The translations under genes were made by a program, and so were the position numbers. The notes beneath the pieces were generated by a model, which did not search any database, had not been told where the DNA came from, and was given only the letters and a program-made list of their open reading frames with translations. Of a stretch of 53,323 nucleotides of DNA, positions 3,911-48,368 are shown piece after piece. Position 1 is the first letter of the stretch; every line of letters starts with the position of its first letter. The DNA comes from Chitinophagaceae bacterium (GTDB taxonomy: Bacteria; Bacteroidota; Bacteroidia; Chitinophagales; Chitinophagaceae). Where the stretch lies: assembly GCA_020847395.1 (NCBI GenBank), contig JADLCD010000104.1, forward strand, positions 1 to 53,323, written 5' to 3'.

Positions 3911-3945
3911 TGGCAAAACGAATTTTTACTGGCAAAAAATCATTG

Positions 3946-6194: not shown

Positions 6195-6362
6195 AAATAA
6201 TAATTAATGATCGTGCAATAATAAGGCAAGATACTTAAACCGCTTGGTTATTTTGTTGCCTGCAAGATCAGTTTTAAACAGGATAATGCTTATACTCGTT
6301 AAATACAGTTGTTTTAACGCAATTTTACCGCTTTTTTATTTTCCTTACTTAAAGGCAAATCT

Positions 6363-6370
6363 TATATTTG
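6363..6370 (+). promoter_or_regulatory. Candidate -7 promoter element (TAnnTTTG) for the BatD-like gene
   Basis: TATATTTG fits the Bacteroidota sigma-ABfr -7 consensus TAnnTTTG at all six fixed positions and lies 48 bases before the ATG at 6418. No clear -33 TTTG is present 19-21 bases upstream, so this is only a candidate. Confidence 0.45.
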
Positions 6371-6417
6371 ATCAGGTACTTATTGTAAAGTGTTATTGAT
6401 TTTGCCGCAACGATAAA

Positions 6418-33012: not shown

Positions 33013-33062
33013 ATTTGTTCTTTTTGAACGTTTTTGCTGTGCAGTTTGCTGTGCGGGGCATC

Positions 33063-33180
33063 CCTGACTGCCGTCAGGCAGGTTCGCCTCATACAGTTTT
33101 CTTGTCGTCTCCGGCGACGGATAAACGTCGCCGGAGACGACAGCAGCATAGTGTTAAGCGAAGACGCTTAACACAGCAGA
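33063..33180. repeat. Two-hairpin dispersed element, copy A, with extra inverted arm
   Basis: The 302-base spacer before recN has three stems: CCTGAC/GTCAGG (33063-33078), a perfect 17-bp stem 33103-33119 with 33126-33142 (6-base loop), and a 10-bp stem 33151-33160 with 33165-33174 around an AAGA loop. From 33127 to 33180 it aligns base for base with the minus strand of 48315-48368 (copy C); in the second stem four base pairs differ on both sides and still pair. No T-tract follows. Confidence 0.82.
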
Positions 33181-33261
33181 ACAACTTAACTTAGCCCCGG
33201 CTTTTTATTTTGTTGGACTTAAAATCTCTAACAATTAACTTGCGCCTGTAACAGCATTACT

Positions 33262-34917
33262 ATGCTTCAAAAGTTATTTATACAGAATTACGCTATCATA
33301 GCATCTCTTGAGATTTCTTTCTCGAAAAAGCTGAATATCATTACCGGCGAAACCGGTGCGGGTAAAAGTATATTGGTTGGTGCATTGGGATTAATACTGG
33401 GCGAACGCGCTGATAGCGCTATACTATTTAATGCACAGCAAAAATGTATAGTTGAAGGAAACTTTTCAATAGCAGGCAGAAAAGACATTCATCAATTTTT
33501 AACAGAGAACGATCTTGATGCGGAGAAGGAAATTATTATCAGGAGAGAGATAGGTGCAAATGGTAAGTCAAGAGCTTTTATCAATGATACGCCGGTTACG
33601 CTCGCCCAGTTAAAACAACTGACTTCGCTGCTGGTAGATATGCATCAGCAGTTTGATACTCTTGAATTGGGCGACAACGATTTTCAAAGAGCAGTGATAG
33701 ATGCGCTGGCAGGGCATAGTGATCTGATCAACAAATATCAAACCCTGTACAGAGCATATAGCAATACTCAAAAAGAACTTGCTGCATTAAAAGAATTGCA
33801 GTCAGATGCCAATAAAGCATCTGATTACAATAAATTTCTTTTTAAAGAATTTGAAGATATTCAACTAAAAGAAAACGAGCTGGAAAAACTTGATGCGGAA
33901 CTGCAAATTTTAGGTAATGCGGAAAATATAAAATCAACACTTTCAAAAGTTAGTTACCAGCTTAATGAAAACGATGAGCCGGTAATTCAGCAATTGAAAA
34001 GTCTGACTAACCTGCTGCAATCTGCGCAAAATCATCATCCTGCCATACCGGCGCTTATTAACCGCTTTCAATCTGTGCAAATTGAATTACGTGATATTGC
34101 CGGTGAAATTGAAAGCCTGAACGACAAGCTGAATTTTGATGCGGAAAGAATACAATGGGTAAGCGACCGCGTTGCCCAGGGGTATAAGCTTTTAAAAAAG
34201 CACGGTGTACAAACCACAGCAGAATTATTAGCTATACAAAATAATCTTCAACAACAATTAGATAAAGTATTGCATCTTGATACGGATATAGCTGCGCTTG
34301 AAAAAAAAGCAGCCGACCAACTGAAAGAAGTGATGCAACAGGCAAAAGCGCTTACGGCTAACCGTGAGAAACAGGTTGCGCCATTTGAAAAACAAACCAA
34401 TAAGTTGCTGGAACAGGTGGGTATGCCTAATGCACGTATTAAAGTGCAGATAACAACAGCACCTTTACATATATCAGGTGCAGACGAAATTGAATTTTTG
34501 TTTGATGCAAACAAAAGCAATCGCTTTGAGTCTTTAAAAAAAGTTGCCAGCGGTGGTGAGCTAAGCAGGCTGATGCTATGCATAAAATCCCTGGTTGCCG
34601 CATCTGTGCAATTACCAACATTGATATTCGATGAAATTGACTCCGGCATCAGCGGGGAAGCAGCCAGGCAGGTTGGTATTATTATGAAAGCACTCGGTAA
34701 TGCACACCAGGTAATAGCCATAACACATCAACCGCAGATAGCAGCAAAAGCCGACCTGCATTTGTTTGTATACAAACAGGAAAAAAACGGAAAAATAAAT
34801 ACCCAGGTAAAAGTTTTATCTGACGCAGAAAGGGTGGATGCAATTGCGAGGATGTTGAGCGGTGAAAAGCCAACCATAACAGCGCTTGAAAACGCAAAGG
34901 AAATGATGGCTTCCTGA
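33262..34917 (+). CDS. recN: DNA repair ATPase RecN
   Basis: 551 residues. Walker A is GETGAGKS (29-36), the ABC signature is SGGELSRLML (about 428-437) and Walker B is LIFDEIDSGISGEAA, which is the RecN form. The middle is a long coiled coil (about 150-380), as in SMC-like proteins. It acts in the repair of double-strand breaks in the cytoplasm. It is a single-gene unit between a repeat-bearing spacer and fabI; the 81-base spacer to fabI contains a candidate promoter rather than a terminator. Confidence 0.97.
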   Translation: MLQKLFIQNYAIIASLEISFSKKLNIITGETGAGKSILVGALGLILGERADSAILFNAQQKCIVEGNFSIAGRKDIHQFLTENDLDAEKEIIIRREIGANGKSRAFINDTPVTLAQLKQLTSLLVDMHQQFDTLELGDNDFQRAVIDALAGHSDLINKYQTLYRAYSNTQKELAALKELQSDANKASDYNKFLFKEFEDIQLKENELEKLDAELQILGNAENIKSTLSKVSYQLNENDEPVIQQLKSLTNLLQSAQNHHPAIPALINRFQSVQIELRDIAGEIESLNDKLNFDAERIQWVSDRVAQGYKLLKKHGVQTTAELLAIQNNLQQQLDKVLHLDTDIAALEKKAADQLKEVMQQAKALTANREKQVAPFEKQTNKLLEQVGMPNARIKVQITTAPLHISGADEIEFLFDANKSNRFESLKKVASGGELSRLMLCIKSLVAASVQLPTLIFDEIDSGISGEAARQVGIIMKALGNAHQVIAITHQPQIAAKADLHLFVYKQEKNGKINTQVKVLSDAERVDAIARMLSGEKPTITALENAKEMMAS

Positions 34918-34944
34918 TGTTTATCGGCTATTAGTGCATACCTG

Positions 34945-34975
34945 TTTGGTTCTTCCCTTTGAATTCCTATTTTTA
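34945..34975 (+). promoter_or_regulatory. Candidate promoter of fabI
   Basis: TTTG at 34945-34948 and TATTTTTA at 34968-34975 are separated by 19 bases, the spacing usual for the Bacteroidota -33/-7 elements. The -7 box departs from TAnnTTTG only in the last base. The fabI start codon follows 23 bases later. Confidence 0.55.
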
Positions 34976-34998
34976 CGCTCAATTTTAAAATCATCAAT

Positions 34999-35811
34999 AT
35001 GTCTTATCATCTTTTGAAAGGAAAGAAAGGAATTATATTCGGTGCGCTGGATGAAAAATCTATCGCATGGAGAACAGCAATAAAATGTCATGAAGAAGGG
35101 GCGCAGCTTGTATTAACAAATGCCCCGGTTGCTTTGCGCATGGGTGAAATAAATAAACTCGCCGAAGCGGTAAATGCCCCTGTTATTGGCGCCGATGTTA
35201 CCAATATGGATGATTTGAAAAAATTATTTGAAGAATCAATTGCGCATTTTGGAGGGAAAATAGATTTTATACTTCATTCCATCGGCATGAGCCTTAACGT
35301 TAGAAAAGGAAAATCCTATACTGAGCTTGACTACGGGTTCAACCAGAAAACACTTGATATTTCTGCTATGTCTCTTCACCGTGTTTTACGCACTGCCTGG
35401 GATCTGGATGCCATCAATGAATGGGGCAGTGTAGTAGCGCTTACGTATATCGCGGCACAACGTGTGTTTCCTCATTATAGCGAAATGGCTGATGCCAAAT
35501 CCTTACTGGAAAGTGTTGCCCGCAGCTTCGGTTATCATTATGGGGTAAGAAAAAAAGTAAGGATCAATACTGTTTCACAATCTCCCACCAGAACAACAGC
35601 CGGCAGCGGTGTAAAAGGTTTTGATGGTTTTATTACGTATGCTGAAAAAATGAGCCCGCTCGGTAATGCAACCAGTGATGATTGCGCCAGTTATTGTGTG
35701 TCATTATTCAGTGATCTTTCAAAAATGGTAACCATGCAGAATCTTTTCCATGACGGAGGTTTTTCATTTACCGGCGTTACGGAAGAAGTGTTGCTGGCAA
35801 TGGAGAAATAA
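34999..35811 (+). CDS. fabI: Enoyl-[acyl-carrier-protein] reductase FabI
   Basis: 270 residues, a short-chain dehydrogenase fold. The family-typical start GIIFGALDEKSIAW (residues 11-24) binds NADH, and the active-site pair is Y160 and K167 (Y-x6-K in HYSEMADAK), with the second Tyr at Y150 in VALTYIAA. It reduces trans-2-enoyl-ACP in the last step of each fatty-acid elongation cycle. It has its own candidate promoter and is followed after 115 bases of word-like repeats by the SemiSWEET gene. Confidence 0.96.
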   Translation: MSYHLLKGKKGIIFGALDEKSIAWRTAIKCHEEGAQLVLTNAPVALRMGEINKLAEAVNAPVIGADVTNMDDLKKLFEESIAHFGGKIDFILHSIGMSLNVRKGKSYTELDYGFNQKTLDISAMSLHRVLRTAWDLDAINEWGSVVALTYIAAQRVFPHYSEMADAKSLLESVARSFGYHYGVRKKVRINTVSQSPTRTTAGSGVKGFDGFITYAEKMSPLGNATSDDCASYCVSLFSDLSKMVTMQNLFHDGGFSFTGVTEEVLLAMEK

Positions 35812-35819
35812 GGGCAAGG

Positions 35820-35925
35820 GGCAATAGTGAATGGGCAATGGTGAGACGTGAGAGGTGAGAACAATGCCTAACCTGAAACCCGCAACCTGAAACCGTGAAC
35901 CTGAAACTTGAAACCAGAAATACAT
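35820..35925. repeat. Word-like degenerate repeats before the SemiSWEET gene
   Basis: The spacer is built of short words: GTGAGA/GTGAGAG near 35840-35860, then ACCTGAAAC or close forms four times (35873-35913). The second word is the complement of those in the 17585-17690 inverted repeat. No protein is coded. Confidence 0.65.
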
Positions 35926-35926
35926 T

Positions 35927-36184
35927 ATGCAATGGATTGATTACGTCGGTTTGTTCGGCGCTGCGCTTTCGTCGGTTACAGTTGTGCCGCAGGTAATTAA
36001 AGCCTGGCAAACCAAATCTGTTGGTGATCTTTCTATATGGATGGTATTTATTTTGATCGGCAATGTGTCTACATGGTTGTTTTATGGGATAGTGAAACAT
36101 GACATTGCTATTATTGTTGCTAACGCTATCATACTGTTTCTTTCTTTACTGATGCTTTATTTTAAACTTTCTTTCAAAAAATAA
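35927..36184 (+). CDS. SemiSWEET / PQ-loop sugar transporter
   Basis: 85 residues with three transmembrane helices (about 6-25, 38-55, 61-80), the size of one SemiSWEET half-transporter, which works as a dimer. Helix 1 has the PQ motif in TVVPQVIKAWQTKSVGDLS, diagnostic of the family; helix 2 has the conserved Trp and Asn in a GNVSTWLFYG context. SemiSWEETs move sugars down their gradient across the inner membrane; the exact sugar is unknown. The stop codon is one base before the start of a Gfo/Idh/MocA gene, strong evidence for joint translation. Confidence 0.9.
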   Translation: MQWIDYVGLFGAALSSVTVVPQVIKAWQTKSVGDLSIWMVFILIGNVSTWLFYGIVKHDIAIIVANAIILFLSLLMLYFKLSFKK

Positions 36185-36185
36185 T

Positions 36186-37271
36186 ATGGCTGACAGATCA
36201 AATAAACTTAGGATACTTGTTGTTGGTTGCGGTAATATGGGGGCATCTCATGCAACAGCTTATCATAACATGGATGAGTTTGAAATATGCGGGCTGGTTT
36301 CGGGAAAAGATACCAAGAAAGTATTGAATGAGCAATTAGGTGGTAAGTATGCATTGTTTGATGATTATTACACAGCGCTGGAAGCTACAAAACCAGATGC
36401 GGTTAGCATATCAACCTATCCTGATACACACGAAGCTTTTGCAGTAAAAGCATTTGAAAGCGGATGCCATGTATTTGTGGAAAAACCTTTGGCAGATACG
36501 GTTGAAGGTTCTGAGCGCGTAGTTGCCGCCGCAGTTAAAGCAAATAAAAAATTAGTGATAGGGTATATTCTTCGTCATCATCCTTCCTGGGAAAAATTTA
36601 TTGAGCTGTCGCAGCAAATGGGTAAGCCTTTAGTGATGCGCATGAACCTGAACCAGCAAAGCAGCGGTAAGATGTGGACATTGCATCGCAATCTCATGAA
36701 GAGCCTTAGCCCGATAGTAGACTGCGGTGTGCATTATATTGATGTAATGTGCCAGATGGTAAGGTCAAAACCGGTTGCAGTACATGCCATAGGTGCAAGA
36801 CTGACAGAAGAAATTCCTGCGGGCAATTATAATTACGGGCAATTGCAGATACGTTTTGAAGACGGCTCTGTTGGCTGGTACGAAGCAGGCTGGGGCCCTA
36901 TGATCAGCGAAACAGCATTTTTTATTAAAGATGTTTTTGGCCCAAAAGGTTCCGTATCTATTGTAGCAAAAAGCGCCGGTGGAAAAGGTAAATCGGATTC
37001 AATAGAAGCGCATACCAAAACAGAATCATTATTGGTGCACCATGCTGAGCTGGATAGCAATGAGCAATTTAAAAAAGCTGACGAATGGATTGATCTTACG
37101 GACGAACCGGATCACCAGGAATTGTGCAACCGTGAGCAGCGTTATTTTTTGAAAGCCATCAATGAAGATATTGATCTCACAGATCATATGCAGGATGCGG
37201 TGAACAGTTTGCGTATTGCATTTGCCTGCGATAAGTCTGTTTTAACCGGGCAAGTTGTAACTTTAGTGTAA
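36186..37271 (+). CDS. Gfo/Idh/MocA family oxidoreductase (SemiSWEET-linked)
   Basis: 361 residues. The N-terminal Rossmann fold has VVGCGNMGASH (12-22) and the EKPLA motif (99-103), whose Lys is the catalytic residue of the family; the C-terminal alpha/beta domain has VDCGVHYIDV, the usual substrate-side His segment. These NAD(P)-dependent enzymes oxidise or reduce sugars and cyclitols, also in 3-keto-sugar formation. No signal peptide, so cytoplasmic. It starts one base after the SemiSWEET stop and is followed after 16 bases by a double-thioredoxin protein. Confidence 0.92.
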   Translation: MADRSNKLRILVVGCGNMGASHATAYHNMDEFEICGLVSGKDTKKVLNEQLGGKYALFDDYYTALEATKPDAVSISTYPDTHEAFAVKAFESGCHVFVEKPLADTVEGSERVVAAAVKANKKLVIGYILRHHPSWEKFIELSQQMGKPLVMRMNLNQQSSGKMWTLHRNLMKSLSPIVDCGVHYIDVMCQMVRSKPVAVHAIGARLTEEIPAGNYNYGQLQIRFEDGSVGWYEAGWGPMISETAFFIKDVFGPKGSVSIVAKSAGGKGKSDSIEAHTKTESLLVHHAELDSNEQFKKADEWIDLTDEPDHQELCNREQRYFLKAINEDIDLTDHMQDAVNSLRIAFACDKSVLTGQVVTLV

Positions 37272-37287
37272 ACAAAAATTTTCTGGT

Positions 37288-38418
37288 ATGAAAAATAAAA
37301 TTTTCATTGCCTTTACTTTTGCTTTGCTTTCCATATTTTCCAGAGCATTTGCTCATTCATTTGAAGAACATCCAACACTTGCTATTGGTGCATCTGCGCC
37401 GGATTTTACATTGCCTGGCGTTGATGGACAAACGTATACCCTTGCATCATTTAAAAAAAAGGATATACTTGTTGTAATTTTCATCTGCAATCACTGCCCT
37501 ACCGCGCAGGCGTATGAAGACCGCATTATTCAACTAACAAAAGATTATGCGGATAAAGGCGTAGCCATAGTGGCAATCATGCCTAACGATCCCGCATCTA
37601 TTACATTGAGTGAGTTGGATTATACTGATCTGAGTGATTCTTTTGAAGAAATGAAAATACGTGCAAAAGAAAAGAATTTTAATTTTCCTTACCTGTATGA
37701 CGGAGATAAAGAAGCAACCGCAAAAGCTTACGGCCCCGTTGCAACGCCGCATGTGTTTATATTTGATAAAAGCCGGAAGCTTTGCTACCAGGGACGTATA
37801 GACGATGTTGAAGATCCGACAAAAATGCCTAAAAACCACGATGCCAGAAATGCTATTGACGCATTACTGGCAAACAAAGAAGCAAATCCCGCCACTACAA
37901 AAGTTTTTGGCTGCTCTATAAAATGGATTGAAAAAAGCAACTGGATTACTAAGGCTAAAGAGGAATGGGCGAAAGAACCTGTAGAACTTCATGATATTAA
38001 TGAAAGTGGTATAAAGGAACTATTGAAAAACAGCAGCGATAAACTCCGCCTCATTAATGTGTGGGCAACATGGTGCGGACCCTGTGTAACTGAATTTCCC
38101 GAATTCATCACGATAAACCGGATGTACAGGAAAAGAGATTTTGAATTTATAAGCATCAGCGCGGATAATCTTTCAAAAAAAGAAAAAGCGTTGAAATTCC
38201 TCAAAAACCAACAGGCATCTAACACCAATTATATTTTTTCAGAGGATGATAAATATAAACTGATTGAAGCCATTGACCCGAAATGGCAGGGCGCATTACC
38301 ATACACAATATTGGTTGAGCCGGGAGGCAAAATTGTATATGCAAAACAAGGCCCGATTAATCCGGGGTTAATGAAAAAAGTGATAGTGGAAAATAAATTA
38401 TTGGGGAGATATTATTAA
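37288..38418 (+). CDS. Exported double thioredoxin-like protein (redoxin plus TlpA-like)
   Basis: 376 residues. A signal peptide ends near residue 22 (SRAFA). The first domain (about 30-205) is a redoxin/AhpC-like fold with the motif CNHC (67-70) in place of the usual peroxiredoxin site. The second (about 235-376) is TlpA/ResA-like with a WCGPC active site (262-266) and a cis-Pro-type LPYTILVEPGG segment. Fusion of the two in one exported chain suggests redox relay outside the cytoplasm. It is the last gene of the SemiSWEET operon and overlaps the convergent desaturase gene by four bases. Redox partner unknown. Confidence 0.88.
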   Translation: MKNKIFIAFTFALLSIFSRAFAHSFEEHPTLAIGASAPDFTLPGVDGQTYTLASFKKKDILVVIFICNHCPTAQAYEDRIIQLTKDYADKGVAIVAIMPNDPASITLSELDYTDLSDSFEEMKIRAKEKNFNFPYLYDGDKEATAKAYGPVATPHVFIFDKSRKLCYQGRIDDVEDPTKMPKNHDARNAIDALLANKEANPATTKVFGCSIKWIEKSNWITKAKEEWAKEPVELHDINESGIKELLKNSSDKLRLINVWATWCGPCVTEFPEFITINRMYRKRDFEFISISADNLSKKEKALKFLKNQQASNTNYIFSEDDKYKLIEAIDPKWQGALPYTILVEPGGKIVYAKQGPINPGLMKKVIVENKLLGRYY

Positions 38419-39209
38419 TATTCCTCTTCTGCTGCCATGTGCATTTTTTGGGAAATTTGCTTTTGTACGATGTTTTTCCTTTCCACCTTTACCAGCCGGA
38501 TAATATGTAATTTATTAAACAAAAGCATTACAGGGTAAACCGGATCTACTTCCCACCATTTGGCAGCAAAGTTTGGGCGTGAGCCTGCATGGTGATGATT
38601 GTTCTGAAATAACTCTCCCAGCATCAGGAAATCAAAAAACAAAGTATTTTTAGAGTGATCGCCTTCGTTAAAATTCCGGTATCCGTATTTATGCCCCGCC
38701 CAGTTAACAATAGCGCCGTGTACAGGACCCATCAGGAAGTGTATCGGTAAAAGCAAATACATCCACCATTGTGTTGCAAACGCAATATAAAATGCGATAT
38801 AACCACCCAAAAAAGCGAACCTCGTAAACCAGCTATCCGCAATTTTATCCAGTACAGGATAGGAAGGAATATTTTTCTCAAACCTTTTTTCTACTGGAAT
38901 TCTCCCGGTAAGTATCCCGCTATATATTGAGCCGGTATGCTTCATCATGCTGAATACTTCTTTAAAAAAATGTGGAGAATGAGGATCTTTTTCCGTGTCG
39001 CTGTAAGCATGATGCATTCGATGCAATATTGCATAGGCTCTGGGATTAAGATAAGAAGAGCCTTGACTAATCCATAAAAAGCAATAGAAAAACGAATCCC
39101 AGAAACGGTTCATGGTAAACATCTTGTGCGCCGCGTATCTATGCAGGTAAAACGTTTGGGAAAACAAAGATAAATACCAGTGTAAAAAAAAGAAGATCAG
39201 GATAACCAT
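38415..39209 (-). CDS. Membrane fatty-acid desaturase
   Basis: 264 residues, short for the acyl-CoA/lipid desaturase family but with all three His boxes: HRYAAH (23-28), HRMHH (63-67) and NNHHHAGS (203-210), plus the extra conserved NWAGHKYG. Hydrophobic segments at 1-20, 38-54 and ~130-170 hold it in the inner membrane. The di-iron centre inserts a double bond in a fatty-acyl chain, probably at C9. It is convergent with the double-thioredoxin gene and is not obviously tied to the sugar genes around it. Confidence 0.9.
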   Translation of the reverse strand: MVILIFFFLHWYLSLFSQTFYLHRYAAHKMFTMNRFWDSFFYCFLWISQGSSYLNPRAYAILHRMHHAYSDTEKDPHSPHFFKEVFSMMKHTGSIYSGILTGRIPVEKRFEKNIPSYPVLDKIADSWFTRFAFLGGYIAFYIAFATQWWMYLLLPIHFLMGPVHGAIVNWAGHKYGYRNFNEGDHSKNTLFFDFLMLGELFQNNHHHAGSRPNFAAKWWEVDPVYPVMLLFNKLHIIRLVKVERKNIVQKQISQKMHMAAEEEY

Positions 39210-39353
39210 GATGCAGGCAAATATTTTATTTCTTTAAGTCAGCATTGCCTTATGCGTTCATCAATGATTATGATATTAACAAAAGGGTTATACGCTTAAA
39301 ACCGGCGCGAATATAATTAAATGTAGTAAGCAAACCTATAAAGTTATCTTAAT

Positions 39354-39382
39354 AAAAAAGGGAACTAAAAATACAGTTCCCT
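39354..39382 (-). terminator. Terminator of the DUF1080 lipoprotein gene
   Basis: Arms 39359-39366 (AGGGAACT) and 39375-39382 are exact complements with an 8-base loop; on the minus strand the stem runs into six T residues (A-tract 39354-39359). It lies 24 bases after the stop. Confidence 0.88.
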
Positions 39383-39405
39383 CCTTTATGCTTTATAATA
39401 TTCAC

Positions 39406-40209
39406 CTATTTCAATTCCTTCAACTGAATATTGCGGTAACGAACTGTCATTGGCGGACCAACATGCACCTGCACGCCAATAAGTCCTGATGCTTTGCTGT
39501 GCGCAGGGTCATTATCTGTTACATCACTCATCAAGGCGCCATTTACAAAATGCTGCAAATGATTTCCCTTAGCAATGATGTGTACCTGGTTCCAGTCTTC
39601 AGCTTTAATCAACGCTTTTAATGAATCTGAATTACCAACAGAGCCATCTACCACCATCGCACTCCATGCATTTTTTTCCGGCTGACCGGGAGCATTTGGT
39701 ATGGTTGTTTTTTGTCCTCTGTATGCCAGTGTGGTACGCCCTCTTTCCTCGTAGTTCTGCCCGGTATACCTGTTGGCTCCGTCAATATCTGCCTGGTAGC
39801 CTTTCATGCCATGAGGCACTCCCGGAAACATTTCGCTTCTGTAATTAATACCACTGTTTCCGGTTGCAGCAATTTTAAATTCTGCTTTCAATTCAAAATC
39901 TTTCGGTTCACCGCCTTTCCAAACCAAAAATGTATTTGTTTTCAATAAAGTTTCAGGGGTTACTGTTCCTACTATAGCGCCATCTTCTACGCTCCAGTGT
40001 ACAGAATCGCCTTCCCAACCTTTAAGTGTTTTACCATCAAAAATAGATTTAAAACCATCTTTATCTGTGTCAGTTGTTGCGGCGGTTATGGTTTCTGTTA
40101 CCGCAGCTTCTTCTTTAATTTGACTATTGCCCGAATTACATGCAGCAGCTATCACAACACTGCCGATTAAAATGGAATGAACAAATGGTAACGCGTTTTT
40201 TGCAAGCAT
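39406..40209 (-). CDS. DUF1080 (3-keto-disaccharide hydrolase family) lipoprotein
   Basis: 267 residues from the ATG at 40209; a TTG 15 codons upstream was rejected because the signal sequence begins at the ATG. A lipobox ends at a Cys near residue 24 (VIAAAC). After a Thr/Ala-rich linker comes the concanavalin-like DUF1080 domain (about 52-265): GFKSIFDGKTLKGWEGD at its start and NSGINYRSE in the middle are diagnostic. Known members hydrolyse or open 3-keto-glycosides. The protein is membrane-anchored outside the cytoplasm. It is divergent from the DUF4432-cupin-isomerase genes over 271 bases. Confidence 0.9.
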   Translation of the reverse strand: MLAKNALPFVHSILIGSVVIAAACNSGNSQIKEEAAVTETITAATTDTDKDGFKSIFDGKTLKGWEGDSVHWSVEDGAIVGTVTPETLLKTNTFLVWKGGEPKDFELKAEFKIAATGNSGINYRSEMFPGVPHGMKGYQADIDGANRYTGQNYEERGRTTLAYRGQKTTIPNAPGQPEKNAWSAMVVDGSVGNSDSLKALIKAEDWNQVHIIAKGNHLQHFVNGALMSDVTDNDPAHSKASGLIGVQVHVGPPMTVRYRNIQLKELK

Positions 40210-40426
40210 TTTATTTTTTTTAAAGTTGAGATGATTATTTTCAATTAAAAGCAAGATATGTTAAACATATACTCCACAAAAGAATGAAATTTTTAAAAAC
40301 AACAACAAGTTTTTTTTCATCAAAGCCGCATCCGGTAAGCCTTTACGTAAAAAAAACTACTTAACTGTCCTGCTGCTTCCTGCCTTTTATATTCAAATCT
40401 ATTCACTATATTGAGTGCTCAATTTT

Positions 40427-40434
40427 TAATTTTG
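40427..40434 (+). promoter_or_regulatory. Candidate -7 element of the DUF4432 operon
   Basis: TAATTTTG matches TAnnTTTG exactly and lies 46 bases before the ATG at 40481. A TTG stands 13 bases upstream, closer than expected for a -33 box. Confidence 0.45.
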
Positions 40435-40480
40435 GGGAGCCGGAAAAAACAATAAAACTACCTCATCCTTACAGACAACG

Positions 40481-41581
40481 ATGCTTGACAACAAAGAAGA
40501 AAAAAATAGTTCGCTTCATACCTGGAAAAATAAAATTTCCAACCACGCACAAATTGGCGGAATAGAAACTTCGGTGCTTGATAATGGTTTATCGAGAGGT
40601 ACACGCATCGCATGGATAAATACCGGCACGGGTCTTCGCTATAAAGTTGTTTTGGACAGAGCAATGGATATTGCCGATGCGTTTTTCAATCAGCATAGTC
40701 TTGCATGGTTAAGCCACCCGGGCATTACAACTTCTCAGCCATTCTCAAACCAGGGCATTGACTGGTTGAAAACCTTTGGAGGTGGCTTGCTCACCACCTG
40801 CGGACTTACGCATACCGGCGGGCCTGAATCAGATGAGTTCGGCCAACGTGGATTGCACGGAGAAATCAGTAATCTTCCCGCGGAAATAGAATCTGTCATT
40901 CAGCCAGATCCTGCAACAGGTAACCTGGATATGAGCATTACCGGAACGGTTAAGCAATCAATGGCTTTAGGCCCCAATCTTGAATTGAGAAGAACAATTT
41001 CAGGTAAGCTTGGCTCATCAACTATTTCTATACACGACATGGTAATCAATCGCGGCAATCAGCCCGCACCGCATATGTTATTATATCATTGCAACTTCGG
41101 ATGGCCACTGGCAGATGAAGGAACAGATATATTGTGGGATGGCGCATGGCAATCGCGGGAAGGTGAACCTAACAATAAAATCTTCAATACAAATAATAAC
41201 TTTAGAAAATGCCCTGCTCCGCTGGATGATCATGTAGGCAGAGGAGAAGAAGCGGCATTTATAGATATTGCTGAAAACAAAGCAGGTGAGTGTTACTGCG
41301 GGTTGTATAATTCACGGTTAGACATAGCTGTTAGTGTAAAGTTTTATAAAGAAGAATTGCCCTGGCTCATCAACTGGCATCATTGGGGCAAGGGAGAATA
41401 TGTTACCGGTTTGGAGCCTGCCACGCTTCCCCCGATAGGACAGGCAAAAGCAAGAGCAGAAAACAAATTAATTTTTATAGCGCCGGGCGAATCGAAAATT
41501 TATCGTCTTGAAATAAAAGTATTACAGAACAAAGAAGACATACATCATTTTTTAAACATTTCAACGAAAGCAAATAAATAA
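40481..41581 (+). CDS. DUF4432 aldose 1-epimerase-like protein
   Basis: 366 residues of the galactose-mutarotase-like beta-sandwich. The segments VVLDRAMDIADAFF, GGGLLTTCGLTHTGGP, GQRGLHGEISN and LLYHCNFGWPL are typical of DUF4432. No signal peptide, so cytoplasmic. Members occur in sugar and sugar-acid clusters and are thought to epimerise or bind carbohydrate; no exact substrate is known. It opens a four-gene run with the cupin gene (4-base gap), the TIM-barrel gene (42 bases) and a Gfo/Idh gene (153 bases). Confidence 0.88.
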   Translation: MLDNKEEKNSSLHTWKNKISNHAQIGGIETSVLDNGLSRGTRIAWINTGTGLRYKVVLDRAMDIADAFFNQHSLAWLSHPGITTSQPFSNQGIDWLKTFGGGLLTTCGLTHTGGPESDEFGQRGLHGEISNLPAEIESVIQPDPATGNLDMSITGTVKQSMALGPNLELRRTISGKLGSSTISIHDMVINRGNQPAPHMLLYHCNFGWPLADEGTDILWDGAWQSREGEPNNKIFNTNNNFRKCPAPLDDHVGRGEEAAFIDIAENKAGECYCGLYNSRLDIAVSVKFYKEELPWLINWHHWGKGEYVTGLEPATLPPIGQAKARAENKLIFIAPGESKIYRLEIKVLQNKEDIHHFLNISTKANK

Positions 41582-41585
41582 ACCA

Positions 41586-42800
41586 ATGGAAAAATTAAGT
41601 TTAGCGCAGAAAGCGTTTGACCAGGGAAAAGGTATTGTGCGGTTAGCACCAAACTGGGTGCCGCGTTCATTTTGTGTACCGGGCAGAAGAATAAAACTTC
41701 ACCCGGATGATTATTATGTATTGGGAGGGCAACGGGGTGGTATAGACGAAAGATGGTTTTCCTCTACCACACCTGCAAAAAACGGCCCGCTTACCGGTGA
41801 ATTTGAAGGGTTGAGCCAGATTGTATTTGAAGAGGGCGGTAAAACACAACAGGTACTATTAAGAGATGCGGTAAGTGAATTGAAAGGTCAATTGATAGGC
41901 GAACGCTTATGGGCAGCATATCAAAGTTGGCCAATGTATTCCAAATTCTTTGATAATATGGGGCCGCTGCCTCATCATATTCACCACAACGATGAAAAAG
42001 CTGCTCTTGTTGGACAAGCCGGAAAACCGGAGGCCTATTACTTTCCGCCGCAGGTAAATAATCACGGAGGTGATTTTCCATATACATTTATGGGTATTGC
42101 ACCAGGCACAACCAAAGAGCAGATCAAAGAATGTTTGATGAATTTCAGCAAAGGCGATAATAAGATCACGAATTTCTCACAGGCATATCGTTTACAACCC
42201 GGTACAGGTTGGGATGTACCTCCGGGCTTGTTACACGCACCCGGCAGCCTGTGCACATACGAGCCACAAAAAGCATCTGATGTTTTTGCCATGTATCAAA
42301 GCCTGGTAAACGAAGCCATCGTTCCGGAAGAATTATTATGGAAAGATACGCCGGCAGACCGCATAGGCGATTACGATGCGCTGATAGAAGTAATTGACTG
42401 GGATCTGAACGTAGATCCCAATCAGTACCAAAACAGGTTTATGGCACCGCTACCTGTGCAGCCCTTTGAACAAACCAAACCACAAGGCTATTATGAAACA
42501 TGGGTCTGCTATAAATCAGATGCCTTCAGCGCAAAAGAATTGACGGTGTTGCCCGGTGCTACTGTAACGATTAAAGATAATGCTGCTTATGGCATTATCT
42601 TAATGCAGGGACATGGTAAATTTGGTGTTTGGAATATCGACTGTCCTGCACTTATACGTTATGGCCAGTTAACCAACGATGAATTTTTTGTGAGTGAGCA
42701 GGCCGCAAAAGAAGGTGTAGTTATTACAAACTATTCATCAACCGATCCAATTGTAATACTGAAACATTTTGGTCCGAACAATCCTGATTTAAAACTATAA
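41586..42800 (+). CDS. Cupin protein resembling mannose-6-phosphate isomerase
   Basis: 404 residues. The layout follows class I phosphomannose isomerases: a first cupin with the metal-binding run HHIHH (130-134), GKPEAYYF (146-153), and a helical insert, then VPPGLLHAPGS (211-221) where His217 is a likely ligand; a second, C-terminal cupin lies at ~305-395. The differences from true ManA are large (no QVHPDD run), so a sugar isomerase or lyxose-isomerase-like activity is as likely. Cytoplasmic. Four bases separate it from the DUF4432 gene, so the two act together. Confidence 0.72.
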   Translation: MEKLSLAQKAFDQGKGIVRLAPNWVPRSFCVPGRRIKLHPDDYYVLGGQRGGIDERWFSSTTPAKNGPLTGEFEGLSQIVFEEGGKTQQVLLRDAVSELKGQLIGERLWAAYQSWPMYSKFFDNMGPLPHHIHHNDEKAALVGQAGKPEAYYFPPQVNNHGGDFPYTFMGIAPGTTKEQIKECLMNFSKGDNKITNFSQAYRLQPGTGWDVPPGLLHAPGSLCTYEPQKASDVFAMYQSLVNEAIVPEELLWKDTPADRIGDYDALIEVIDWDLNVDPNQYQNRFMAPLPVQPFEQTKPQGYYETWVCYKSDAFSAKELTVLPGATVTIKDNAAYGIILMQGHGKFGVWNIDCPALIRYGQLTNDEFFVSEQAAKEGVVITNYSSTDPIVILKHFGPNNPDLKL

Positions 42801-42842
42801 CAGCATAGTAAATTAAATATTCACTGAATAAATACTAACGAT

Positions 42843-43871
42843 ATGTCACAAAACAATTTTCCCAAACTACACAATGCAACATGGCCTGGCGTTGTGGGTA
42901 AAGGCCCGGATTCTGAGCCGCCATTGCTGATTGAAACCATGCTTGAATACACCGCCAAAGCCGAAGTGAACGGTGTAAAATTTGATGGCGTGGATGTTGG
43001 ACTATTTGATCCTTCCATTGACCTAAACGATCCTGATGGTCCAAAAATTCTTGCAAATAAAGTAGCGAAACATAATCTTGTTATAGGCAGTGTAGTGGCG
43101 CCTATATGGGGCGGTCCCGTACTTGGCACAGCCGATGACCGTAAAACGTTTTTAGAGGAGGTACGCAAAAGCTGTGTGTTTGCTCAAAAGCTGAATGATA
43201 TCGGTATCCGCAAATATGGCATTGTACGTATAGATTCTGCCAGCAGCCCTGAGCAATATTCAAAAGATCCTGCAGGCAGCCAGAAATTAATTGTGGATAC
43301 ATTTAAGGAAGCTGCTAAAATTGCCGGCGACCATGGTGAAAAATTAGCCGCAGAAGGGGAAATATGCTGGGCAGGCATGCATAGCTGGCGCACTATGCTC
43401 AATACACTCGAAGCAGTGAACAGTCCTAACCTCGGCTTCCAGGCAGATATGTCGCATACATTTTTGTATTTGTTAGGATACAATGAACCAGGAGATCGTA
43501 TTCTTCCTGAAAATTTTCAGTGGAGTGATCGAGCTGCATTAGAAGAAGGTTTAAAAAAATTAACTGCAGCGCTTCGTCCGTGGACAATAGATTTTCATGT
43601 AGCGCAAAACGATGGTACTGTGCATGGCACAGGCTCACACGACAAAACAGGCCGCCACTGTCTTGCAACTGACCCCAACGGAAGATTAGACATTGCAAAA
43701 GATGCGGGCTACTGGCTGCGTGATGACAAAGGCAATCTCACAAAAGCGTTTAAACATATCTGTTGGGATGGTTGTATGTTCCCTAACTCGGTAATGCACA
43801 ATCAGCAAACATGGAATGATATTCTATCGGTGATGATTAAGGTAAGAGAAGCGCATGGGTGGGAGGAATAG
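42843..43871 (+). CDS. Sugar phosphate isomerase/epimerase (xylose-isomerase-like TIM barrel)
   Basis: 342 residues. It has no signal peptide. The barrel strands carry conserved acidic/His residues expected to bind a divalent metal: [55 protein letters not shown]. This pattern fits the AP-endonuclease-2-like sugar isomerase/epimerase family, which works on keto-sugars, inositol derivatives and similar compounds. It is the third gene of the DUF4432 operon, with a spacer of 42 bases, and is followed by a repeat-filled spacer before the Gfo/Idh gene. Confidence 0.87.
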
Positions 43872-43872
43872 T

Positions 43873-44022
43873 GGTAAGTGGTAAGAGGTAAGACTGTAAG
43901 AGGGTAAGATGGTAAGAGGGGTAAGACTGTAAGATGGTAAAATTGCAAAAAGTAAAACAATATTGATAAACAATGCTGATAGCCGATAGCAATCAAATTT
44001 TAAATCTCAAATTTCAAATACA
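43873..44022. repeat. Purine-rich word-like repeats in the spacer before a Gfo/Idh gene
   Basis: GGTAAGA or GTAAGA recurs about eight times between 43873 and 43941 at irregular steps of 8-14 bases; the words CTCAAAT and CAAAT follow at 43996-44022. The steps vary and there are no unique spacers, so it is not a CRISPR array. Confidence 0.7.
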
Positions 44023-44024
44023 TC

Positions 44025-45188
44025 ATGTCAAATAAAAAACAACTACGCATAGGTTTGGTCGGCACCGGCTTCATGGGCCGCACACACTCCAATGGATATA
44101 ACAGGGTGCCCAATTTCTTCCCCGATTTAGAATATTCGCCTGTATTAAAAGCAGTATGCTCACGCCATAAAGAAAAAGTGCAGGCATTTGCTGATCAGTG
44201 GGGTTATGAATCTATTGAAACCGATTGGAAAAAACTTATTGCACGCGATGATATTGATGCAATAGATATTTGTACGCCTAATGATATGCATGCAGAAATC
44301 GCTATCGCTGCTGCTAAAGCAGGAAAAATGATTTTATGCGAAAAACCTTTGGCACGCACGCTGGCAGAAGCAAAAGGAATGGTTGATGCCATTGAAAAAG
44401 CAAAAGTAAAAAATACGGTTTGGTATAATTACCGTCGTTTACCTGCCGTTACGCTTGCCAAGCAAATTATAGACAGCGGCAAGCTTGGAAAAATATTTCA
44501 CTACCGCGCAAACTTTTTGCAGGACTGGACTATCAGCGCTGATGTGCCGCAGGGTGGTACTGCCGCATGGCGCTTGGATGTGGAAGCAGCAGGCTCCGGC
44601 GTAACGGGCGACCTGTTGGCGCACTGCATTGATACCGCTATGTGGTTAAATGGCGGCATTACAGATGTATCTGCTGTTACGGAAACATTCATCAAAGAAA
44701 GATTTCACCAGATAACAGGCAAAGTAGAAAAGGTAGGTATTGACGACGCCTGTATCTTCCATTGCCATTTCGCCAATGGTTCATTAGGCTTGTTTGAATC
44801 AACCCGCTATGCACGCGGGCATAAAGCTTTATATACTTTCGAGATCAATGGCGAAAAAGGGTCCCTGCGCTGGGATTTGCACGACCTGAACCGTTTGGAA
44901 TATTTCGATCACAACGATGAAGGTATAGTACGCGGCTGGCGCTCTATACTTGTTACCGATGGCGATCAACCATATATGGGCAAATGGTGGGTGCCTGGTT
45001 TGATTATTGGTTACGAACATAGCTTTATACACCAGGCAGCAGATTTTCTGAAAGCATTACAGGACGGCACTGAATGCCATCCCAATTTTCGCGATGCATA
45101 TGAAACACAGAAAGTATGCGAAGCGGTAATTGACTCAGCAAAAAGCAGGAGCTGGAAAGAGACAGAGGTGGAGTGGGTGGAGAAATAA
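44025..45188 (+). CDS. Gfo/Idh/MocA family oxidoreductase (second copy)
   Basis: 387 residues. Rossmann motif [10 protein letters not shown] (12-21), catalytic-lysine motif EKPLA (106-110), and the substrate-domain segment [14 protein letters not shown]. It shares only the family pattern with the copy at 36186, so the two probably have different substrates. Cytoplasmic, NAD(P)-dependent. It is the last gene of the DUF4432 run and is closed by a strong terminator. In context it may oxidise a sugar to a keto-sugar that the isomerase and epimerase genes then handle; this is inference. Confidence 0.92.
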
Positions 45189-45247
45189 CAACAAATATTT
45201 TTTACGCTACGCCATGATTTCTGTCTCACGAATCATTTATTAAACTG

Positions 45248-45280
45248 AACCGCCCCGATTTAATCGGGGCGGTTTTATAT
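45248..45280 (+). terminator. Terminator after the Gfo/Idh gene
   Basis: Arms 45248-45260 (AACCGCCCCGATT) and 45262-45274 are exact 13-bp complements around a single base, followed by TTATATTTAT. It lies 60 bases after the stop codon. Confidence 0.9.
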
Positions 45281-45362
45281 TTATGTTATCAGCGGCTGTA
45301 ACACTCTTGAACTTTAGTTGCGTCGCACTCTTGTACTGCAACAATACTATTCAACTCGTATG

Positions 45363-45397
45363 CAGGGTTCCGAACCTTTCAAAGGTTCGGAACCCTG
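45363..45397. repeat. Near-perfect palindrome, 17-bp arms
   Basis: 45363-45379 and 45381-45397 are exact complements around one central C (core GGTTCCGAACCTTT). No T-tract. It lies in the 596-base gene-free spacer before the GH9 gene. Confidence 0.88.
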
Positions 45398-45416
45398 TAC
45401 ATCACCATGATGCACA

Positions 45417-45469
45417 AAACCTATAAGGTTTGCCGCCCGGCCATACAGCGCTGCAAACCTTATAGGTTT
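45417..45469. repeat. 17-bp inverted repeat with 19-base loop
   Basis: 45417-45433 (AAACCTATAAGGTTTGC) and 45453-45469 are exact complements. The loop holds GCCGCCCGG. It follows the palindrome at 45363 by 19 bases. A short frame crosses it (45407-45592) but has no protein-like features. Confidence 0.88.
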
Positions 45470-45501
45470 AAGTTGACTTTAGAAATTGTATTGCATAAAA
45501 A

Positions 45502-45555
45502 TATCGCCAGGGGCGATAGAAAAGCGATGCGTGGTGAAAACGCCACGCACAGCGG
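45502..45555 (+). repeat. Two-hairpin dispersed element, copy B
   Basis: First stem TATCGCC/GGCGATA (45502-45508, 45512-45518), second stem 45528-45536 with 45541-45549 (nine pairs, one G-T) around an AAAA loop, then CAGCGGA. It aligns with copy A (33127-33180) and with the minus strand at 48315-48368 (copy C). Compared with copy C the outer pair of the first stem is changed from G-C to A-T with pairing kept. Confidence 0.8.
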
Positions 45556-45563
45556 ATTTCACC

Positions 45564-45625
45564 CGTCATTCAGGCACGCGTACACGTTTTAGGTCAATGC
45601 ACCAAGATGTGCCTTCGGAATGACG
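45564..45625. repeat. 14-bp interrupted inverted repeat (GTCATTC-type)
   Basis: CGTCATTC-AGGCAC (45564-45577) pairs with GTGCCT (45609-45614) and GAATGACG (45618-45625), leaving a three-base bulge. The word CGTCATTC returns at 53116-53123. Such units are common between genes in this family of bacteria. Confidence 0.72.
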
Positions 45626-45784
45626 AAGGCGGGTGTCGTCATTTCGGTCACCGCTGTTACTCTAAAAGCGATATCCTGATTGATTTGCACAATTTTCAAC
45701 CTTGTTTTATTGTATCTTTATTTTTACCATAGTTTTATAACAATAAAAATTTCTAAAAAGCAAATCCAAAACTACTGTTGTTTT

Positions 45785-48238
45785 ATGCGTACAATATTCA
45801 AACTGATTTACCTAACGGTTGCCGTTATTTTCCTTACCTGCAATATTACTTATGCGCAAGTCGATAAAAAGCTTAAAGAAGAGCTACAACAAACCGGTTT
45901 TATTCACCATAGCCTTCTGCCGCTTGATGAAACCAAATCGTTTGAAGCCTTTGGCATCAGGAAAAAGGTATTGAACTCCATCATGCTTTGTGACATGGAA
46001 GACATTAGCGTGTGGAGTCACAAAGGGATTGGTAAAATATCGCAAACAGCAGAGCGGAGCAAATCAGGAAAATATAGTCTACGTTTACATGCGCCTGCTA
46101 CTTCGCCGGGAATACCTGATTGGGGTTTAGGCCGCGGAACCTGTCTCGCTTCATTTGATGTAGGTGGTGCTAATTGGGAGAAATACAACCGGCTAACATT
46201 TTACATCTACCCAAACTGTGAAGGAGATAGAAGCATCTACTTAAACTTGTACGTAGAAAACGATGGCATAACCAAAGTTCCTGATGTATACGGCAGGGAA
46301 GGTTACCATGAAATCAACCTGAAAAACAACCAGTGGAACGAATGCTTTCTTGAAATAACAGGACTGGCAAGAGATAAAGTGACTAAAATATCTTTTGCCA
46401 TAGAAACTTTTGGTAAAGAGCTAACCATGGGTGATTCGCTGATTTTTGATGTTGATGCAGTAGCATTACAAACTATTGAAAACCCTGAAACCGTTCGGGG
46501 CTGGAAACCTGCACAAGACCGTATCATTCTTTCCACAACAGGCTACAGAACTGAAAGCAAAAAAACAGCCATTGTAAATGTTGAAAAAAACACAGGTACT
46601 TTTCAGTTAAAAGATGCGCAAACAAAAAAAGTAGTATACACAGGTAAAATCCAACCACAACAAACACAGATCGGTTTGTTTAATACAATTGATTTTTCAA
46701 ATTTTAAAACGCCGGGGCAATATATAATACAAGCAGGTAATGTTGAAACTTTGCCCTTTTATATTGATAAAGATGTGTGGGATAATTCGGTATGGCGAAT
46801 GATAAACTTTCTATATGCTGAACGTTGCGGTTTTCCCGTGCCGGGTAAACACGGCGCCTGCCATACAGACCTGCATGCCAATTTTAATGGAAAAATTATT
46901 CCGATCAACGGTGGATGGCACGATGCGGCAGATATGTCGCAACAAACTTTACAAACAGGCGAAATATCTCTTTCTTTAATGCAAATGGCTGATCGCGCAA
47001 AACAAAAAAATAATACACAGTTATATAACCGGTTAATGGAAGAAGCGCTGTGGGGAATGGATTTTGTAATGCGCTCCCGCCTTGGCGATGGGTATCGGGC
47101 ACAATCCTGGGGCACCAATTTTTGGACGGATGGAATAATCGGCACTATTGACGATACAGCAAGGCGTGAAGTACATGTATATAACGGAGCCTTAGAAAAT
47201 TTTTTACTTGCAGGTATTGAAGCTTACGCATCAAAAATGGTTGAAAGGGATCAGGCATTGAAAAGTAATCTTGAAAAAATTGCCATCCAGGATTTTGACT
47301 ATGCTATGGAACGGTTTTCAAAACTTGGTTTTGCTGAATTAGTAAAAAAGGGGGGCGGGCACGCAGGCATGGCTTCTCAAAGTCAGTATATGGCAAATAT
47401 TTCCTGGGCAGCCAGCATGTTATATAAACTAACCGGTGATAAAAAATATGCTGATGAAGCGGCAAAAGCAATTGACTATGTTTTACAATGCCAGCGTATA
47501 GAACCGCTGAAAGACAAAGACGGGCTCTCTGGTTTCTTCTATAGGGATCTTGATAAAAAATCAATTGTGCATTATACACACCAGTCCAGGGATTATGCAT
47601 ATATGGAAGCATTGGCTGCATTATGCGAAACGCAACCCAATAATGCGGCATATACAAAATGGGCAAAAGCAATTCAATTATATGGTAAGTATCTCAAAAA
47701 TATTATGCAGTATGTGCAGCCTTATGGTATGGTTCCGAGTGGTGTTTATCACCGTGATGAAGTAAAAGACTCCGTTAATTTTTATGCAGTACAGGTTGGT
47801 ATAAGAAGTGGTGCAACCAATGATTACAAACAACAATTTGAAAACGGCATAAAGCTGGATGAAGAACACAGGCTGCGGTTTTTCCCGGTTTGGTTTTCGT
47901 TTAAAGGTAACGGCGCTGTTACGCTTGCTACCGGTAAAGCAGCAGCCATTTGTGCAAAATTTTTAAATGACAATGAATTGAAAAATATTGCAGAGCAACA
48001 ATTGTTTTGGATAGTAGGTAAGAATCCTTTTGGGCAGTCGCTTATTTATGGAGAAGGGAGCAATTACCCCCAGTTGTACACTGCATTACCCGGTGAAACG
48101 GTTGGTGGCATACCCGTTGGTATGCAATCTTATTTTAACGAAGACAGACCCTATTGGCCACAATTTAATACTGCAACGTATAAAGAACTATGGGGTGCAC
48201 CTGCGGCCAGATGGTTAATGTTAGTTGCTGAATTTTAA
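45785..48238 (+). CDS. Exported glycoside hydrolase family 9 endoglucanase-type enzyme
   Basis: 817 residues from the ATG at 45785; a frame 35 codons longer lacks a signal peptide at its start. Signal peptide 1-25 (ITYAQ). Residues ~55-245 are a beta-sandwich resembling a carbohydrate-binding module (MLCDMEDISVWSHKG, SGKYSLRLHAP). An Ig-like CelD_N domain follows (about 250-345), then the (alpha/alpha)6 barrel. The catalytic base region is GWHDAAD (Asp380, Asp383) and the proton donor is Glu801 in TYKELWG. GH9 enzymes cut beta-1,4-glucans. With no T9SS domain and no lipobox, it should be periplasmic or released. Its neighbours point to use of the sugar products. Confidence 0.92.
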   Translation: MRTIFKLIYLTVAVIFLTCNITYAQVDKKLKEELQQTGFIHHSLLPLDETKSFEAFGIRKKVLNSIMLCDMEDISVWSHKGIGKISQTAERSKSGKYSLRLHAPATSPGIPDWGLGRGTCLASFDVGGANWEKYNRLTFYIYPNCEGDRSIYLNLYVENDGITKVPDVYGREGYHEINLKNNQWNECFLEITGLARDKVTKISFAIETFGKELTMGDSLIFDVDAVALQTIENPETVRGWKPAQDRIILSTTGYRTESKKTAIVNVEKNTGTFQLKDAQTKKVVYTGKIQPQQTQIGLFNTIDFSNFKTPGQYIIQAGNVETLPFYIDKDVWDNSVWRMINFLYAERCGFPVPGKHGACHTDLHANFNGKIIPINGGWHDAADMSQQTLQTGEISLSLMQMADRAKQKNNTQLYNRLMEEALWGMDFVMRSRLGDGYRAQSWGTNFWTDGIIGTIDDTARREVHVYNGALENFLLAGIEAYASKMVERDQALKSNLEKIAIQDFDYAMERFSKLGFAELVKKGGGHAGMASQSQYMANISWAASMLYKLTGDKKYADEAAKAIDYVLQCQRIEPLKDKDGLSGFFYRDLDKKSIVHYTHQSRDYAYMEALAALCETQPNNAAYTKWAKAIQLYGKYLKNIMQYVQPYGMVPSGVYHRDEVKDSVNFYAVQVGIRSGATNDYKQQFENGIKLDEEHRLRFFPVWFSFKGNGAVTLATGKAAAICAKFLNDNELKNIAEQQLFWIVGKNPFGQSLIYGEGSNYPQLYTALPGETVGGIPVGMQSYFNEDRPYWPQFNTATYKELWGAPAARWLMLVAEF

Positions 48239-48314
48239 GCTTGAAAGCTAACGGAGCGCTCCAACTTTTCAACGTAAAATATTTGTAGTTAACTAATTCA
48301 GGAATCATTTGTAA

Positions 48315-48368
48315 CCCGCTGTGCGTGGCGTCTTCGCCACGCACTCTTCTGCTGTCGCCTCCGGCGAC
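48315..48368 (-). repeat. Two-hairpin dispersed element, copy C
   Basis: On the minus strand: first stem GTCGCC/GGCGAC (48363-48368 with 48354-48359), second stem 48335-48344 with 48321-48330 (10 bp) around an AAGA loop, then CAGCGGG. Over 54 bases it aligns without gaps to copy A at 33127-33180; the second stem differs by four compensated pairs. It lies between the convergent GH9 and CBM9-like genes. Confidence 0.85.

Follow-up and report, generated by a model that had tools for sequence, protein, structure and literature searches.

Covarying two-hairpin repeats of Bacteroidota that are probably spread by a RAYT, a single-strand-DNA transposase

The REPs that belong to subclass 2.6 TnpA_REP proteins (group-5 RAYTs) of Bacteroidetes are characterized, in the passages of one study that deal with them, as atypical, weaker structures that lack GT[AG]G (PMC6006769). 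The same passages give the enzymes a length of ~179 aa, the motifs NH[LIV]H and YIH[QN]NP, an HuH-Y distance of ~82, an SS motif, and WQ. The RAYTs of E. coli and S. maltophilia cut REPs at a CT beside the hairpin, and the inverse strand was without activity in the cases reported, according to the relevant sections of PMC8266576. To the extent that these sources cover it, RAYT biochemistry rests on the GTAG hairpins of gammaproteobacteria. Compensatory change in REPs is already known; a two-hairpin architecture without GTAG is less described. The titles, abstract openings, and selected passages of the REP literature that we consulted contained no description of a two-hairpin REP, and a literature search for Chitinophagaceae together with "repetitive extragenic palindromic" returned no result.

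We analyzed a stretch of 53,323 nucleotides from a Chitinophagaceae bacterium (contig JADLCD010000104.1; hereafter the window), in which a preliminary description had reported three copies of an intergenic two-hairpin element. We consider it highly probable that this element is a two-hairpin REP, that copy A and a partner form a REPIN, and that both are non-autonomous mobile DNA of subclass-2.6-like RAYTs, moved by the mechanism proposed below.

All three copies were recovered: copy A at 33127–33179 (+; inner hairpin 33127–33141, outer hairpin 33151–33174, AGC 33175–33177; 71.8 bits), copy B at 45503–45555 (+; 69.3 bits), which starts one base later than originally given, and copy C at 48316–48368 (−; 80.5 bits). 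B and C are solo REPs. C lies between two convergent reading frames and, read on the plus strand, consists of a GCT foot (48318–48320), an outer hairpin (48321–48344), and an inner hairpin (48354–48368). We also found a fourth, previously unlisted copy at 33046–33118 (−; 38.6 bits, E = 2.2e-8), which is placed head to head with A at a distance of 8 nt. The pair makes up an inverted REP doublet (REPIN; 33046–33179) with the order outer hairpin, inner hairpin, 8 nt spacer, inner hairpin, outer hairpin, and with its GCT/AGC feet pointing outward. On the GCT-foot strand, one unit comprises GCT, a 10 bp outer stem with a 4 nt loop, a 9 nt linker, and a 6 bp inner stem with a 3 nt loop; the strand written in the preliminary description is the opposite one, on which AGC comes after the outer stem.

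The second stems of A (GTGTTAAGCG/CGCTTAACAC) and C (GTGCGTGGCG/CGCCACGCAC) differ at exactly the four pairs that had been claimed, and all four are complementary in both copies. The first stem of B has A-T where that of C has G-C, also as described. The loop that had been called constant is AAGA in A and C and is AAAA in B. The second stem of B contains one A-C mismatch and one wobble, and the first stem of A contains one mismatch. In the partner of A, the outer-hairpin loop is enlarged by a nested CCTGCCTGACGGCAGTCAGG hairpin; similar nested hairpins enlarge the outer-hairpin loops in L002, L030, L038, and L224. When the window was searched for the 27-base second hairpin of C with up to three mismatches, 2 matches were found (C itself and B), against 0.00 expected from 100 shuffles. 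Folded as single-stranded DNA, A, B, and C gave z values of −5.7, −4.7, and −7.3, and the partner of A gave a weaker value of −1.6.

Other repeats are present in the window. Upstream of copy B (45410–45471) lies a palindromic repeat, AACCTATAAGGTTTGC...GCAAACCTTATAGGTT, that also adjoins a REPIN in another genome of the genus (L226) and is partially present in L223; directly after B (45561–45640) lies a long imperfect hairpin, CACCCGTCATTC...GAATGACGAAGGCGGGTG. A perfect 22 nt inverted repeat, ACCCCTCGTGCCTCGGGGTGAC, with arms 76 nt apart, occupies 2294–2413. Repeats at multiples of ~250 bp (24318–27849) fall inside a minus-strand frame (23684–28003, 1439 aa) and are probably repeated protein domains.

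A genome search with a covariance model had been named beforehand as deciding, and it yielded many paired copies. The model (R1) was built from five copies, and its E-values are rough. At E ≤ 0.01 it had 22 matches in the genome that contains the window, which correspond to 20 places: one place was matched on both strands, and one match, a member of a different element, was left out of the count. Of the other 11 genomes of the genus, 10 contained matches (1 to 62 each), as did 15 of 37 relatives overall; in two genomes from other genera the counts reached 123 and 65. The higher counts may be underestimates, because no more than 150 candidates per genome were scored. Among the matches listed, doublets with a 7–8 nt spacer occur at 33046–33179 and at least seven other places in the genus; in the window's own genome, no other of the 20 places forms a close doublet with a neighbor as the A pair does. 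Five REPINs of the genus (L221–L225) have two unlike inner hairpins, with an ATCGCC-type stem on one side and a GTAGCC-type stem on the other, and are thus heterodimers. A pattern search using the first hairpin alone found few copies, one of them false (L008). The different element is a second dispersed palindromic, MITE-like repeat of the same genome (L034, L035, L036, L037, L040, L042, near 1500), which R1 matches weakly; its ends are long inverted repeats like GGTGCATTTAAAATTGTCGC, and inside it are hairpins (GTGGGCGGTG/CACCGCCCAC).

A Y1-transposase gene in the window's own genome has an R1 match beside it, and in relatives, copies ~650 bp apart in inverted orientation bracket a gene of ~183 aa. 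In L070, the frame (6244–6831) is flanked by copies at 6177–6229 (−) and 6837–6889 (+); in L071, by copies at 1264–1317 (−) and 1916–1968 (+), the open frame (1330–1992) extending beyond the likely start; in L072 (frame 4391–4969), by copies at 4316–4368 (−) and 4978–5030 (+); and in L073 (frame 3504–4091), by copies at 3447–3499 (−) and 4106–4158 (+). The RAYT gene of L082 lies between copies at 1407–1459 (−) and, weakly, 2068–2120 (+).

Five of the encoded proteins, trimmed by hand, were aligned (alignment A5). They are 180–183 aa long and share YIHNNP or YIHQNP, a spacing from H60 to Y143, and YLYSSA. Length, YIH[NQ]NP, HuH-Y distance, and SS motif, and the phylum as judged from named relatives, match the features reported for subclass 2.6/group 5. 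The NHxH motif is NHVH in L012 and NHMH in the four flanked genes, and a conserved W is followed by T, I, or V (WQ occurs in the second RAYT of the window's own genome, translated by eye). From these sequences, the flanked genes fit subclass-2.6-like (group-5-type) RAYTs, with reservations on NH[LIV]H and WQ. Alternatively, the repeats could be the termini of a conventional IS200/IS605 insertion sequence or a MITE mobilized by some other transposase. RAYTs are related to IS200 TnpA, and L012 scored above the PF01797 cut-off, which the other two of three scanned RAYTs missed. However, all three scanned proteins (L012, L070, and L072) matched NCBIfam NF047646 REP_Tyr_transpos (101–108 bits, cut-off 80), the sole match to an IS200 model (L012) reached 23.7 bits against a cut-off of 55, and the tyrosine motif is YIH[NQ]NP rather than the Y---Q that the consulted passages of PMC6006769 give for IS200 TnpA. 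We regard this origin as hardly credible.

We then extended the comparison beyond the genus. Within the family, a profile made from A5 detected RAYT genes in 85 of 147 genomes (E ≤ 1e-20), and within the phylum in 67 of 296 (E ≤ 1e-25). The better-scoring family matches supplied 76 loci, of which 74 had both flanks (72 distinct). Inverted flank matches with a score of at least 38 were found at 49 of the 74 loci (48 of the 72 distinct) and in 79 of 5402 cross-locus pairs; 25 of the 74 loci had no inverted match at this threshold, and 21 of the 74 reached 38 as direct repeats. In the phylum sample, 14 of 28 loci had inverted flank matches, compared with 12 of 756 cross pairs, and in a sample of named genomes, 55 of 78 loci compared with 135 of 6006 cross pairs, with direct-repeat scores as high as the threshold in 31 of the 78. 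The named and family samples overlap in three loci. One common locus is filed under Parafilimonas, a member of Chitinophagaceae.

Many of the flanking copies have two hairpins. For 114 copies from 57 loci, the score on a two-hairpin scale was 12.0 versus 4.3 after shuffling, and 99 of the 114 exceeded their own shuffles. Under a symmetric parsing rule, only 71 of 112 family flank copies were parsed as two hairpins; in the named sample, 48 of 110 were parsed, against 12.2 in shuffles. Many of the REPs at RAYT flanks follow a common plan of a foot that often ends in CT, an outer stem of ~10 bp, a linker, and an inner stem of ~6 bp. Their stem letters are strongly unlike between loci.

The preliminary description proposed that the folded form is what is kept, and covariation among copies together with flank-versus-flank comparisons bore this out. 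For covariation we aligned 92 R1 matches at E ≤ 1e-5 from 56 loci (the genus and a few other genera), of which 78 were distinct. In the distinct copies, 95.6% of 1236 cells were paired. Both sides had changed in 151 cells, versus 36.1 (SD 4.4) in shuffles, and such double changes were present at 12 of 16 pairs; one-sided changes amounted to 25 cells and unpaired states to 55 (summed). The covariation score was 0.389, compared with 0.148 in shuffles and at most 0.103 when the partners were slid. Because the copies share ancestry and were aligned to fit the structure, these figures alone are not proof. In a second test, we compared the two flanking copies of the same RAYT gene at the 29 of 57 candidate loci at which both flanks were parsed as two hairpins. 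Among pairs that had changed on both sides, 31 still paired and 1 did not. One-sided changes led to a wobble pair in 12 cases and to an unpaired state in one copy in 20; 396 pairs were unchanged, and 4 fell in gaps. The telling figure is the 31 versus 1 among double changes, because the loci were selected for folding flanks, which favors pairing.

Complementary arms could also be maintained by template switching at stalled replication forks (quasipalindrome correction) alone, with no selection for the fold, an alternative that the preliminary description had raised. It is in keeping with the fact that the four changed pairs of A and C are consecutive, and with the excess of double over one-sided changes in the model alignment. 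It is at odds with the flank comparisons, in which one-sided states are common, and by itself it does not predict that, in genus after genus, genes of one family should be surrounded by a two-hairpin plan. We judge it highly improbable as a full account, and since one-sided intermediates exist, it is not needed, although arm copying could serve as a mutational route. Most likely, the stems change letters yet stay paired because the enzyme needs the fold.

We compared G-T pairs with A-C oppositions to determine which strand folds. On the GCT-foot strand, the ratio of G-T to A-C was 65:16 in the 71 of 112 family copies parsed under the symmetric rule and 53:14 in the named sample. It was 43:26 in the model alignment that contains the window copies, the same direction even though the other strand had been used to build the model. 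These counts are not independent, because part of them comes from one G-T pair that is fixed in related REPs at 14 loci. They favor folding of the GCT-foot strand, opposite to the one first described. At those 14 family RAYT loci (for example, L121, L133, and L145), the outer stem reads CT-RGCGC...GTGY, with the G-T wobble kept at the fourth pair; this fixed wobble may be analogous to the bulge that is conserved in E. coli REPs. On the GCT-foot strand, none of the 71 family flank copies that were parsed has a GT[AG]G foot; on the other strand, 7 of the 71 do. AGC (the complement of the GCT foot) follows the outer stem in 71 of the 78 distinct copies of the model alignment. The foot depends on register: it ends in CT in 35 of 71 copies of the family and, in the wider named sample, in only 13 of 48. 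The CT foot is thus firm for the window's genus, common in the family, and at most tentative for the phylum.

The preliminary description had left the element as either an RNA or a cruciform substrate. A structured RNA (an mRNA stabilizer, terminator, or sRNA) maintained for its RNA fold would account for the hairpins, the covariation, and the intergenic position of 16 of the 20 copies in the window's genome (by a crude ORF call). It sits poorly with the absence of any Rfam family at gathering score in the window, and with the orientation of the copies relative to co-directional neighboring genes, which is even (6 versus 6). It also sits poorly with the inverted pairs that bracket a transposase gene, and with the wobble ratios, which favor the opposite strand in all three sets, if by just 43:26 in the set with the window copies. 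We therefore consider an RNA element quite improbable, although there may be a secondary RNA effect. The bracketing of RAYT genes by inverted copies, the even gene orientation, and the preference for wobble on the opposite strand point to a DNA hairpin rather than an RNA.

We next examined how REPs are distributed among lineages. The RAYT-flanking REP of G047 had 77 matches in that genome (a few places being counted on both strands), of which 54 form 27 inverted pairs with starts 111–122 bp apart, and it had no matches in five other genomes. The RAYT-flanking REP of G020 and G134 had 49 and 23 matches there, respectively, and none in four other genomes. Reversed-pattern controls for these searches gave no matches. 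Among seven G047 matches with two mismatches, four showed compensated stem changes and three did not. Across 46 loci, the more alike two RAYTs are, the more alike are their REPs (Mantel r = 0.59; 0 of 2000 permutations), a correlation to which vertical descent contributes. Within single genomes, 16 pairs of RAYTs at ≤57% identity had unlike REPs (similarity 0.09–0.33), and two pairs, at 87% and 93% identity, had similar ones.

At the threshold used, two RAYTs of this type are intact in the window's own genome (a draft of 190 contigs), and neither is flanked by inverted copies of the window element. One is accompanied by direct copies of a different two-hairpin element, with GTAGCC/CAGCGTAGCT stems, and the other by GGCGCAAGCG stems. 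A third RAYT is broken by stops, and a degenerate R1 match (E = 2.3e-4) adjoins it. At L219 (C137:31800–34200 of the same genome), the decayed RAYT with its stops is preceded, just before its recognizable part, by another inverted hairpin repeat, GTGGTTCGTG...CACGAACCAC. We found no intact RAYT with the stems of the window copies in the draft, and the window copies may therefore be relics that no longer move, or may rely on a gene that the assembly lacks.

We also looked at orthologous sites. The spacer between a zinc-ribbon gene and a RecN/SMC-type gene was found with the same neighbors in G002, G004, G007, and G008, and in none of the four did it contain an R1 match (E ≤ 0.01). Weak matches lie upstream of recN in G005 (L313, E = 3.7e-6) and G003 (L315, partial, E = 0.008), in stretches where the zinc-ribbon neighbor was not found. 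Five orthologs of the GH9 gene between B and C had no copy within 1.5 kb; this is weaker evidence, because the neighboring genes were not found within the 1.5 kb fetched. All genomes that are copy-free at these sites, except G011, contain the family elsewhere. This patchy presence marks the sites of the window copies as subject to turnover. As the syntenic recN orthologs are 63–70% identical, the absence from the recN spacer indicates turnover rather than a dated insertion. When the flanks of the A-doublet site were compared with shuffles, similarity was clearly in excess only for L316 (right) and L318 (left), and marginal for L323 (left), too little to yield an insertion point. Although the four relatives with the same two neighbors have no copy there, they revealed neither a target-site signature nor a clean empty site corresponding to the A doublet.

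The assignment to REPs and REPINs draws together the inverted flanking of RAYT genes, the dispersed copies, the doublets, the shared plan, and the strand indicated by wobble. For the action of the enzyme on these REPs (binding, cleavage, cutting at CT, strand transfer, and a link to replication), we infer the following. Binding of the hairpins by the RAYT (an HUH/Y1 enzyme of the subclass 2.6/group 5 type) most likely takes place while the GCT-foot strand is single stranded, as it may be, for example, when it serves as lagging-strand template. The enzyme would cut at the CT dinucleotides of the feet and join the REP or REPIN elsewhere; the GCT foot is a likely cutting or guide site, by analogy with the E. 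coli and Stenotrophomonas enzymes. The stems would drift by compensated pair changes together with their own RAYT lineage, as fold, foot, and linker matter more than stem letters. The doublet looks like a miniature derivative, because its outward ends are those of a RAYT between two REPs with the gene left out.

A further proposal, which we put forward tentatively and hold at somewhat below even chances, is that group-5 RAYTs of Bacteroidota read the two-hairpin tandem mainly by shape, leaving the stems nearly free, so that each lineage has its own code. If so, one genome could harbor several REP populations that do not cross-react. The GTAG-less two-hairpin REPs of many Bacteroidota, together with their enzymes, amount to a natural collection of enzymes matched to their substrates, from which one can learn what a RAYT recognizes. 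G047, in which one REP is abundant and 27 inverted pairs occur, is suited to asking whether REPINs still move. For annotation, covarying hairpins of this sort should not be taken for RNAs.

The preliminary description knew of no named family with this pattern; the element is of a known kind, the REP/REPIN, for which compensatory stem changes have been published (PMC3116915 and PMC2817692, in the portions consulted). It resembles REPINs and GTAG REPs, which are mainly proteobacterial, in its inverted doublets, inverted RAYT flanking, and compensated stems. Unlike them, it has no GTAG foot (0/71), two hairpins per REP in many copies, and, in the listed matches, a 7–8 nt spacer in at least eight doublets from the genus. 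Its strand preference fits that of the other REPs treated in the cited sections of PMC8266576, whose inverse strand is inactive in the cases reported. With CGTC-tagged REPs it shares short palindromes and the phylum, Bacteroidetes being among those reported in the relevant part of PMC3733652. Judged against the same part, it differs in several ways: a constant CGTC tag is missing (A, B, and C do not agree in the base that precedes the first hairpin), the tail is AGC without CCA, and RAYT flanking, said there to be absent for CGTC REPs, is present. There is also a close likeness to subclass 2.6 TnpA_REP as presented in the passages of PMC6006769 cited above: proteins of ~180 aa with NHxH, YIH[NQ]NP, and a long HuH-to-Y distance in the same phylum, and flanking structures without GT[AG]G that have further copies in the genome. 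Those passages call the structures only atypical and weaker; the present analysis adds measurements of their two-hairpin plan, of doublets and covariation, and of populations specific to single genomes.
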